Shown one piece after another: positions 21,184-23,959 of a stretch of 23,959 nt of DNA. Made by a program: the position numbers and the translations under genes. The stretch is from positions 1 to 23,959 of IMG/VR virus record IMGVR_UViG_3300009593_000121. One strand, written 5' to 3'. This DNA is from a virus. The notes beneath the pieces were generated by a model. The model was not told the origin of the DNA, made no database searches, and was given only the letters and a program-made list of their open reading frames with translations. The stretch's first letter is position 1; each line of letters begins with the position of its first letter.

Positions 21184-21489
21184 TTATGCGTAATGTGTTT
21201 CTACAAACTCGTTGTTATCATCAAAGTCACTACCACCACCTTTAACAGCAGCTGCAGCAGCTGATGCGATATCATTTACCTTCTCACTAGCTTTAACTTT
21301 AGATTTTAATCCTGATTGATCAGTTATTAATGATGGACTATTATATGCTCCCGGATCTTTATGTTCAGATAATATATTTGTTATTCCGCTATTACCGGTT
21401 CCACTTCTCCCCGTCACTTTTGCGAGTTCGTCTGCAGTTATCGAGTATCGATCTTCTACAAATTCGTTGTTATAATCAAAATCGGCCAT
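21184..21489 (-). CDS. Small protein with identical-type motif at both ends, 101 aa
   Basis: 101 residues and the first gene of the leftward block. The N-terminus reads DFDYNNEFVEDRYS and the C-terminus reads DFDDNNEFVETHYA, an obvious duplicate of the opening motif. Between them are polar segments, an Ala-rich stretch (IASAAAAAVKGGG) and no membrane helix. The protein is acidic and probably extended. The repeated end motif could be a docking peptide, for example for capsid or fibre binding, or a relic of recombination. No family is recognised. The start is ATG with an A/T-rich leader lacking a Shine-Dalgarno. Confidence 0.6.
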   Translation of the reverse strand: MADFDYNNEFVEDRYSITADELAKVTGRSGTGNSGITNILSEHKDPGAYNSPSLITDQSGLKSKVKASEKVNDIASAAAAAVKGGGSDFDDNNEFVETHYA

Positions 21490-21589
21490 TTTGTTTTTAT
21501 TTTAATGTTAATATTTTTCTTTGTGTACATTAGTACCTATTCACAGGTTTTTACTCTTTTTTACAAAATATTAGATATATAGAAGTTAG

Positions 21590-21600
21590 GGGTAACCCCC
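21590..21600. repeat. Inverted repeat GGGGT-A-ACCCC
   Basis: The sequence GGGGTAACCCC at 21590-21600 is a 5-bp perfect inverted repeat around one base, at the border between the AT-rich leader and the C-rich region. It could be a small protein-binding palindrome. Confidence 0.5.
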
Positions 21601-21624
21601 ATCCCCCTATCTTTCCAACTACTA

Positions 21625-21639
21625 GGAAAACGCTTTTCC
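21625..21639. repeat. Short hairpin GGAAAA-CGC-TTTTCC
   Basis: A 6-bp stem with a 3-base loop, readable on both strands. On the minus strand it lies ahead of the leftward genes, so it may be a leader hairpin or an operator. Confidence 0.45.
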
Positions 21640-21690
21640 CATTTGACCCCCGCCTTTGTTTTAAAATCCGCAACGATATTTTTTGGCCTT

Positions 21691-21940
21691 TTTCCTCCCA
21701 TCCCCTCCCCTCCCTAGGCTTTCACCTTTTACTATCTATCCCTCACCCCTCCCATCCGATCATATCTATCCATTCGATCTTATCCTATCCCTATCCCTAT
21801 CCTTATCCCTGTCCCTGTCCCCATCCCTGTCTCCGTCCCTATCCCCTCTCCCCTCTCTCCTCTATCTATCCAATCCCCATCCTAACCTCATCATCCCACC
21901 CCCACCCCACCCCACCCCTCCTATCCCCCTCCCTCCCCTT
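21691..21940. repeat. C-rich, nearly G-free tract (G-rich on the minus strand)
   Basis: About 250 bp dominated by C and T. I count 6 G in 21721-21940, and none from 21841 to 21940. Runs of CCC/CCCC recur every few bases, so the minus strand carries dozens of GGG/GGGG runs in close spacing, suited to G-quadruplex formation. The flanking DNA is very AT-rich, so the composition break is abrupt. The inner part is a hexamer array (separate entry). An open frame here translates only as Ser/Leu/Pro repeats and is not a gene. Confidence 0.85.
21786..21845. repeat. Telomere-like hexanucleotide array, 10 units
   Basis: Ten consecutive 6-base units fit the pattern [TC][AG]TCCC with few deviations: TATCCC, TATCCC, TATCCT, TATCCC, TGTCCC, TGTCCC, CATCCC, TGTCTC, CGTCCC, TATCCC. 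Read on the minus strand this is GGGATA/GGGACA-type repeats, similar in form to telomeric repeats and suited to G-quadruplex folding. Confidence 0.85.
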
Positions 21941-21949
21941 AGAACTAAG

Positions 21950-21983
21950 TAACTACGATGTCATTAAGATAATAATAATATAA
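21950..21983 (+). promoter_or_regulatory. 34-bp repeated element, copy 1 (candidate early promoter)
   Basis: TAACTACGA (one change from TAAATACGA), 7 spacer bases, then AAGATAATAATAATATAA. It lies just after the C-rich tract and 26 bp before the first rightward gene. No Bacteroidetes-type TTG...TAnnTTTG promoter is evident within it. Confidence 0.65.
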
Positions 21984-22009: not shown

Positions 22010-22120
22010 ATGACAGATTTAATAATAATGATGATTGCAGCTCTACTAGCTCTAACTCCATACATTCTCGTAGAAATAATAGATTTAATTAAAAAATTAA
22101 TAAATAAATTTACTAAGTAA
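22010..22120 (+). CDS. Tiny membrane protein, 36 aa
   Basis: ATG 22010-22012 to TAA 22118-22120 encodes MTDLIIMMIAALLALTPYIL, then VEIIDLIKKLINKFTK. It has one hydrophobic helix (about 4-24) and a basic amphipathic tail. It lies behind element copy 1 with the leader TAACTTAATATG, and its stop codon is the first three bases of copy 2. Tiny single-helix proteins encoded early by phages often target host membrane processes, but no homologue is recognised. Confidence 0.6.
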   Translation: MTDLIIMMIAALLALTPYILVEIIDLIKKLINKFTK

Positions 22121-22151
22121 ATACGACCTCAACAAGATAATAATAATATAA
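22118..22151 (+). promoter_or_regulatory. 34-bp repeated element, copy 2
   Basis: TAAATACGA, 7 spacer bases, AAGATAATAATAATATAA. The first TAA is the stop of the 36-aa gene, and the next ATG follows after 25 bp. Confidence 0.7.
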
Positions 22152-22176: not shown

Positions 22177-22275
22177 ATGAATAAAATTAAATTAATAACT
22201 TTCCACTTCGCACTCGTTCTTTTCATTGCTAACATTATAAACTTCGTTTATCAATTAATTAAAATAACAATGTAA
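22177..22275 (+). CDS. Tiny membrane protein, 32 aa
   Basis: The leader AAATAAATAATATG opens a 32-residue frame: MNKIKLITFHFALVLFIANI, then INFVYQLIKITM. It is nearly all one hydrophobic helix with a few basic residues at each end. The end ...ITM-stop (ACAATGTAA) is the same as that of the 35-aa protein at 22997, and both stops are the first bases of a 34-bp element. Function is unknown. Confidence 0.55.
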   Translation: MNKIKLITFHFALVLFIANIINFVYQLIKITM

Positions 22276-22306
22276 ATACGACTTCATTAAGATAATATAA
22301 ATATAA
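22273..22306 (+). promoter_or_regulatory. 34-bp repeated element, copy 3
   Basis: TAAATACGA, 7 spacer bases, AAGATAATATAAATATAA. The first TAA is the stop of the 32-aa gene. The ATG of the next gene follows 35 bp later, after a run of AAAT repeats. Confidence 0.7.
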
Positions 22307-22341: not shown

Positions 22342-22563
22342 ATGTCTAAATTAAATAAAATAACTAAAAATCGCTTCATTCTTTCTAACTCTTTACTTGG
22401 CAAATCTGCTATCATATCATTCACAAATAAAAAAGGCGAAAGCTTTACTTACAATCACGATCAAGTGTTTGCTAATAATCAAACTCGCTTACTATCTATG
22501 AATTGCTTCATTAAATATGGCAATTATACTAACTCAAATAAAATACCTACTTGGGCTATATAA
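22342..22563 (+). CDS. Small early protein, 73 aa (paralogue of the gene at 23784)
   Basis: 73 residues, starting MSKLNKITKNRFIL. The core contains SLLGKSAIISFTNKKGESFT, then YNHDQVF and MNCFIKYGNYT. Residues 11-61 align without gaps to residues 8-58 of the truncated gene at 23784, with 23 identical positions of 51 counted by hand. Conserved points are RF, SL-x-G, FTNKK-x-E, TY-x-HD and MNCF-x-x-YG. It is soluble and basic with no known domain, probably a small beta-rich fold. It has its own 34-bp element upstream and is followed by a short non-coding stretch. Confidence 0.75.
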   Translation: MSKLNKITKNRFILSNSLLGKSAIISFTNKKGESFTYNHDQVFANNQTRLLSMNCFIKYGNYTNSNKIPTWAI

Positions 22564-22641: not shown

Positions 22642-22675
22642 TAAATACGACTCTATAAAGATAATATAAATATAA
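22642..22675 (+). promoter_or_regulatory. 34-bp repeated element, copy 4
   Basis: TAAATACGA, 7 spacer bases, AAGATAATATAAATATAA. This copy is intergenic and does not overlap a stop codon. The next ATG follows after 18 bp. Confidence 0.7.
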
Positions 22676-22834: not shown

Positions 22835-22996
22835 CTCGTTTTAGCTATGTGACATTAGCCTGTTATTCCCTATACTTATAACCCTTTTGTCACACTATTA
22901 AATACTAATATTTTAATATATCTTGTAAGATATTGAGATATCAAGTGTTAAACTATAAACTAAAAATAAACTAATTAATAAATATACACCTTTAAA
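22835..22996 (+). other. Non-coding stretch with several inverted repeats
   Basis: Here a gene start is not served by a 34-bp element. TGTGACA (22848-22854) and TGTCACA (22888-22894) form a 7-bp inverted repeat with a 33-base loop. ATATCTT-GT-AAGATAT (22918-22933) is a 7-bp hairpin, and a further GATATC palindrome follows at 22937-22942. Together they could be a terminator and an operator/promoter for the next gene, or a small structured RNA. No tRNA or gene was found. Confidence 0.4.
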
Positions 22997-23104
22997 ATGA
23001 ATAAATATAATAATAAACAAGATGAAGAAAGTGCAAATAAAGTACTTGGAATAATGGTAATACTCTTTTGTATAATAATAGTTTTAAACTATATAACAAT
23101 GTAA
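22997..23104 (+). CDS. Tiny membrane protein, 35 aa
   Basis: MNKYNNKQDEESANKVLGIM, then VILFCIIIVLNYITM. A charged N-terminus is followed by a single hydrophobic helix to the end. It shares the ...ITM-stop ending (ACAATGTAA) with the 32-aa protein at 22177, the stop again opening a 34-bp element. Its own upstream region lacks that element. Function is unknown. Confidence 0.55.
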   Translation: MNKYNNKQDEESANKVLGIMVILFCIIIVLNYITM

Positions 23105-23135
23105 ATACGAATAAGCAAAGATAATAATAATATAA
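23102..23135 (+). promoter_or_regulatory. 34-bp repeated element, copy 5
   Basis: TAAATACGA, 7 spacer bases, AAGATAATAATAATATAA. The first TAA is the stop of the 35-aa gene, and the next ATG follows after only 10 bp. It heads the three-gene set at 23146-23735. Confidence 0.7.
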
Positions 23136-23484: not shown

Positions 23485-23735
23485 AAAAACTAATAATACC
23501 AATTATACTAATGGCGGGAGTGTCATGTAGTACACAAACAAAAGTTGAAACTAAAATATATAAAGATTTCAGTGAAGCACTCAACAATATTCAAGATATG
23601 AGAGAGTGGATGAAAGAAGATAAAGTACAAGGAATTATAGATTCTGACTATGCTGACTACTATATTGAGTATTTAAATAACAGTGAAGATTTACTAATAA
23701 CTCATTGGAATAACGAACTAAATACGAATAAGTAA
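23481..23735 (+). CDS. Putative early lipoprotein, 84 aa
   Basis: 84 residues. MKKLIIPIILMAGVSCSTQT is a short signal peptide ending in a lipobox-like GVSC with Cys17 as the likely lipidation site. The -3 residue is Gly, which is unusual, but an SCS ending is frequent in Bacteroidetes lipoproteins. The mature part is helical and acidic (FSEALNNIQDMREWMKEDKV, then YADYYIEYLNN). It would sit at the periplasmic face of a membrane. Phage lipoproteins of this size often block superinfection, which is a possible role by analogy only. The last codons overlap element copy 6. Confidence 0.65.
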   Translation: MKKLIIPIILMAGVSCSTQTKVETKIYKDFSEALNNIQDMREWMKEDKVQGIIDSDYADYYIEYLNNSEDLLITHWNNELNTNK

Positions 23736-23752
23736 AGATAATATAAATGTAA
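23719..23752 (+). promoter_or_regulatory. 34-bp repeated element, copy 6
   Basis: TAAATACGA, 7 spacer bases, AAGATAATATAAATGTAA (one change in the last part). It begins inside the lipoprotein gene, whose stop is in the spacer, and precedes the last ATG by 31 bp. Confidence 0.68.
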
Positions 23753-23783: not shown

Positions 23784-23959
23784 ATGAATAACTTAACTAC
23801 AAAAAGATTTGTGATAAGAAAATCACTAATCGGTGAAGATGTAACAATTACATTCACTAACAAGAAAAATGAAACTTATACTTACGATCATGACGAGATC
23901 TACTCAACTCATCAAGAGAAATTTGAAACTATGAATTGTTTTCAAGAGTATGGTTCTTA
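23784..23959 (+). CDS. Small early protein, truncated by the window end (paralogue of the 73-aa gene)
   Basis: 58 complete codons from the ATG after AAATAAATAAT. The translation starts MNNLTTKRFVIRK and contains SLIGEDVTITFTNKKNETYT, YDHDEIY and MNCFQEYGS. It aligns without gaps with residues 11-61 of the gene at 22342 (23 identities of 51 by hand), so the two are diverged copies in the same block. It is preceded by its own 34-bp element. The stop is beyond the window. Confidence 0.75.
   Translation, partial: MNNLTTKRFVIRKSLIGEDVTITFTNKKNETYTYDHDEIYSTHQEKFETMNCFQEYGS

Follow-up and report, generated by a model that had tools for sequence, protein, structure and literature searches.

The region around the C-rich tract of this virus record reads, on balance, as a divergent early/late transcription-control junction, in which two boxes and a sigma-type promoter would be the conserved parts and the tract itself a variable spacer. 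Judged by its sequence, the window (the whole 23,959-base virus record) is an uncultured marine bacteriophage with a terminase kin to those of flavobacterial phages. Terminase relatives are found in phages of Flavobacterium, Cellulophaga, Maribacter and Tenacibaculum and in the uncultured phage MW202828 (63% identity to the window terminase), with further kin in at least 600 environmental stretches. The leftward strand encodes a P22-like portal, terminase, amidase, GroEL and GroES, and the rightward strand to the right of the tract carries small ORFs. This ORF layout confirms the placement of the tract, in an earlier note on this DNA, between divergent leftward and rightward blocks. The features of the junction in the window are listed here.

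21184..21489, minus strand: first ORF of the late block, 101 aa, leftward
21571..21599, no strand assigned: box 1, TTAGATATATAGAAGTTAGGGGTAACCCC, located by position weight matrix (PWM) and kept across 75 junctions
21622..21656, no strand assigned: box 2, CTAGGAAAACGCTTTTCCCATTTGACCCCCGCCTT, starting 51 bp after box 1
21691..21940, no strand assigned: C-rich, G-poor spacer tract, G-rich on the minus strand
21950..21974, plus strand: motif copy 1 (TAACTACGATGTCATTAAGATAATA), first putative phage-sigma promoter
22118..22142, plus strand: motif copy 2, putative promoter
22273..22297, plus strand: motif copy 3, putative promoter
22342..22563, plus strand: small early protein of 73 aa, with 48% identity to the one directly right of the junction in relative G026
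22642..22666, plus strand: motif copy 4, putative promoter
23102..23126, plus strand: motif copy 5, putative promoter
23719..23743, plus strand: motif copy 6, putative promoter

The abrupt, nearly G-free tract described by the earlier note is real. Positions 21691–21940 hold 131 C, 8 G, 35 A and 76 T, and the 6 G previously counted in 21721–21940 are exact. Over 250-base stretches, the excess of C over G reaches 123 at the tract versus 44 elsewhere in the window, where no comparable stretch occurs; its extent needs revision, however, as the anomaly belongs to a longer C-biased region that begins at about 21591 and includes the conserved boxes directly left of 21691. The claimed G-quadruplex (G4) potential was borne out by G4Hunter, which reaches −3.08 at 21894. 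On the minus strand, G4-type matches (GGG runs with loops up to 7) lie at three places, 21697–21714, 21807–21827 and 21895–21938, and the same pattern search returned none on the plus strand. "Dozens" of minus-strand GGG/GGGG runs was a fair description (29 runs of CCC or longer in 21560–21960), and the window spacer contains 25 CCC runs where composition-preserving shuffles predict 16.3 (z 3.7). The tract is non-coding, the 89-aa ORF that overlaps it (21683–21952) being low-complexity. An Rfam search of the window gave no match.

Comparison with relatives revealed a common order across 76 junctions: late gene, often a hairpin (GTGACAnTAGCCTGTTACT), box 1, box 2, spacer and the first copy of ACAAAnTAAATACGA-n9-GATAATA. 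The consensus of box 1 is TTAKAWATATAGRRGTAnnGTGTTGCCCC and that of box 2 is AAAAnnnnTTTnTTTnnnCCnGCCCCC. In the window, box 1 scores 34.4 and the runner-up on that strand 10.6; in the genomes scanned, the best genome-wide match to box 1 lies at the junction. Although the best box sites were chosen independently for each junction, the start-to-start spacing of the boxes is 50–53 bp in 74 of 75 cores (at 92% identity, 70 of the 75 are distinct). The pair is a single-copy element that heads the long late block, and we tentatively regard it as a candidate late promoter or operator. Descriptions of such a divergent junction or two-box element were not found in the literature searched. An inverted repeat within box 2 (GGAAAACGCTTTTCC, window 21625–21639) is a possible protein-binding site. 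A structured RNA at the junction core was considered and dropped, as RNAalifold on the 75 cores found no structure on either strand and Rfam had no match in the window. Likening box 1 to the host-type promoter of Elemovirus was also abandoned, since that promoter faces the early block and the corresponding side here is the late block. A separate recurrent inverted-repeat element, TGTGACATTAGCCTGTTACT..AGGCTAATGTCACA, lies at 22849–22893 in the window and left of box 1 in G003, G025, G031 and G033; it has matches in 52 of the 76 junctions and is found beside early genes as well.

On the rightward side, the pattern TAAATACGA-n7-AAGATAATA has six copies in the window versus 0.14 expected, and viral contigs contain it in at least 119 stretches. 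The consensus of 419 instances is ACAAAnTAAATACGA-n9-GATAATATAAATATAA. The motif sits ahead of early genes, with nearly all copies on the early strand in oriented genomes, and contigs fetched by the motif alone often have a C-rich tract where the late and early blocks meet. A different pattern, AGGCGGGGGTCAAATG, was discarded as a probe for relatives, as four of the six contigs it retrieved were unrelated. The same terminase family is encoded by all 34 motif-bearing records tested, and 28 of these, plus G003, G004 and G005, encode a sigma-70-like factor (Pfam Sigma70_r2 and r4, both above cut-off); the six without a sigma match are contigs of 48.5–57.6 kb. The complete records of MW202828, Elemovirus, phi18:3 and Panino yielded no such factor. 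The motif stands ahead of phage genes in sigma-encoding relatives and is absent from the scanned parts of the sigma-less MW202828 and Elemovirus, an association which suggests that it is very probably a promoter read by the phage sigma factor. Because the window, G001 and G002 fragments do not include the sigma gene region, we infer the sigma factor of the window from more distant relatives. The sigma factor of G004 is 55% identical to that of G026, and in G004 (63600–65600) GATAATA is kept while the upstream element differs (CACGGACTTAC).

Two known promoter types resemble the motif in part. T7-type promoters have the sequence TAATACGACTCACTATAG, and the ATACGACT core of the phage motif prompted such a reading, given a similar core (AAATACGA) and register. 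We rejected it because the T7-type single-subunit RNA polymerase (PF00940) was found in none of the 34 motif-bearing records, with T7 detected as a positive control (E=9.9e-110). Unlike T7-type promoters, moreover, the phage motif reaches ACAAA upstream and GATAATATAA downstream, and it is associated with a sigma factor. The flavobacterial sigma-A promoter is characterized by a −7 element, TAnnTTTG (PMC9723704). It shares with the motif an arrangement of two elements about 19 bp apart (here, ACAAA to GATAAT) but differs in having TAnnTTTG where the phage motif has GATAATA. Host-type promoters (TTG, 16–23 bp, TAnnTTTG) occur in hardly any of the motif-type junctions (3/76), but both the Elemovirus and the MW202828 junction have them.

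Among the flanking genes, the 101-aa ORF at 21184..21489 on the minus strand had no family match. The small early protein at 22342–22563 has a paralogue at 23784–23957, and the two window copies have diverged (44% identical). Together with L253:15843-16061 they share a family signature (KRFVIRKSLIGK..TFTNKKGE..YNHD), for which a PHROGs search was without match.

By position, the C-rich tract makes up the spacer that separates the boxes from the first motif copy. The presence of such a tract at the equivalent site in close relatives, raised by the earlier note, was confirmed: of the two nearest contigs, L089/G002 keeps it and L088/G001 starts within it. A G-rich tract is not conserved at the site across the wider group, as the spacer varies from 27 to 675 bp and from 0.04 to 0.50 in C fraction (73 junctions; highest in the window, 0.48, and G002, 0.50), and the boxes persist without a C-rich tract in G003 and G004. 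This weakens the earlier view of the tract as the functional site, the conserved element being the two adjacent boxes. Direct reading of the Elemovirus junction showed no tract of this kind. At the equivalent junction, MW202828 carries a different low-complexity tract (CGACGC/ACACACG, CG/CA-rich, L006:17900-18200), and a palindrome, TGTCGTTAACGACA, is repeated between its early genes (L006:19540-20620). G003, which has the boxes and the sigma factor, holds a CG/T-rich low-complexity stretch in the place of the spacer (27880–28040). A C-rich peak in G010 was rejected as an equivalent tract, being glycine-rich coding sequence.

The tract might be a functionless by-product, an intergenic filler driven by mutation and slippage whose only role is distance. 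Its variable length and composition fit this, as does its fast divergence: between the window and G002, substitutions amount to 11.1% in the tract, against 2.2% in the boxes and 2.8% in the first motif, and the boxes have no indels while the tract has 24 indel columns, with a 24-bp gap in its repeat part. Composition also accounts for most of the C-run clustering (median z 1.07 over 18 spacers). The clustering nonetheless exceeds composition in the window, G002, L202, L160 and L174, and 25 C runs are retained in both the window and G002 despite their divergence. Pure filler would likewise not account for the shared sense of the bias, with an excess of C over G between box 1 and the motif in 64 of 73 junctions and G4Hunter reaching −1.2 or below on the minus (late-RNA) strand in 44 of 73, against none at +1.2 for the plus strand. 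We consider filler rather unlikely and the tract probably a weakly constrained spacer with a strand bias; its one-sided G4 potential and the above-chance clustering of C runs in the window lineage could reflect a function of its own.

A further alternative is a replication origin of the transcription or R-loop type at the tract. G-rich leftward RNA would hybridize stably to the C-rich strand, the displaced G-rich strand might fold into a G4, single-stranded DNA would be left for a phage primase-helicase, and the adjoining A+T-rich early leader would serve as the unwinding element. The models are mitochondrial CSB II and T4 oriF. At CSB II, G-rich RNA is tied to transcription termination and replication priming; the phage junction likewise has a G-rich strand within a control region, but a single-subunit polymerase was not detected here, the tract sequence is not conserved, and termination and priming would be hypothetical. 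T4 oriF and oriG combine a phage-specific middle promoter with an A+T-rich unwinding element (PMC3016281). The similarities are a phage-specific promoter beside A+T-rich DNA, a primase-helicase gene (in relative G026) and, in a minority of relatives, a putative leftward promoter across the tract; the differences are the lack of MotA, a hypothetical R-loop, a C/G-rich tract, and the recurrence of promoter and A+T-rich leader before early genes generally, which makes the combination not site-specific. Wherever G4 potential exists, it is the leftward-RNA strand that is G-rich, as an origin of this kind would have it. The earlier note had proposed R-loops from a promoter right of the tract, and a strong leftward motif copy does occur at the right edge of the spacer, 20–54 bp to the left of the first copy that points rightward, in 9 of 76 junctions; if used, these copies would send G-rich RNA through the spacer. 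Most junctions, that of the window included, have no leftward motif, and such an R-loop is plausible for a minority of junctions only. Cumulative GC skew, also put forward by the earlier note, has its minimum at the junction for three relatives (G026, G035 and G038) and no more than about 1 kb away for two others (G003 and G041), so that turning points do fall at or near the site in several relatives. Skew, however, tracks the coding strand: the inverted GroEL operon of Elemovirus flips local skew (−0.29 versus +0.15 and +0.22), which shows that it reports coding strand and does not indicate an origin, and we rejected it as origin evidence. C-richness, moreover, is missing in many relatives where the boxes persist. 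An origin or R-loop site at the tract is thus possible but unproven, and in our estimate fairly improbable. A more elaborate proposal, in which the two boxes (at a fixed 51-bp spacing) and a strand-polarized G4/R-loop tract form a dedicated origin and transcription switch that links transcription by the phage sigma factor with both the start of replication and the early-to-late change of direction, appears distinctly unlikely.

The earlier note had also suggested a packaging site, and a genome end (cos, pac or fixed terminus) might explain why nine of the 17 contigs retrieved with box 1 as the sole probe end within 450 bp of it on the tract side (G066, G057, G067, G068, G061, G070, G058, G056 and G062) versus about 0.3 expected given their lengths, with none of the 17 ending within 450 bp on the other side, and why G001 begins inside the tract. 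The break points are nonetheless scattered over 0–421 bp, the tract is approximately 15 kb from the terminase gene, and assembly failure at a variable, low-complexity site accounts for the breaks. Moreover, exact end overlaps of 73–127 bp in five relatives (G003, G004, G033, G035 and G041) are consistent with circular closure, and we therefore read the cluster of contig ends as assembly failure or strain variation. A fixed terminus here seems highly improbable.

In the divergent early/late control junction that we favor, serial promoters, the first adjoining the tract, would drive the small early genes rightward, probably through host RNA polymerase with a phage-encoded sigma factor. Leftward, the two-box element would head the late block, most likely as a late promoter or operator. 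The tract sequence between them appears poorly constrained; a bias of C over G is common and is extreme in the window lineage, where it may have arisen partly through gain and loss of 6-bp repeats. At most, the tract probably insulates two divergent promoters or supplies a purine-rich late leader.

Assemblies of these genomes tend to break at the tract. The conserved parts of the junction offer a sequence handle with which to find, orient and annotate such genomes, and a short fragment suited to late-promoter and origin tests. Together, a sigma factor of their own, a promoter-like motif with 419 instances and a conserved two-box element at the sole divergent junction would constitute a coherent control system, open to experimental test, across a widespread group of uncultured phages.
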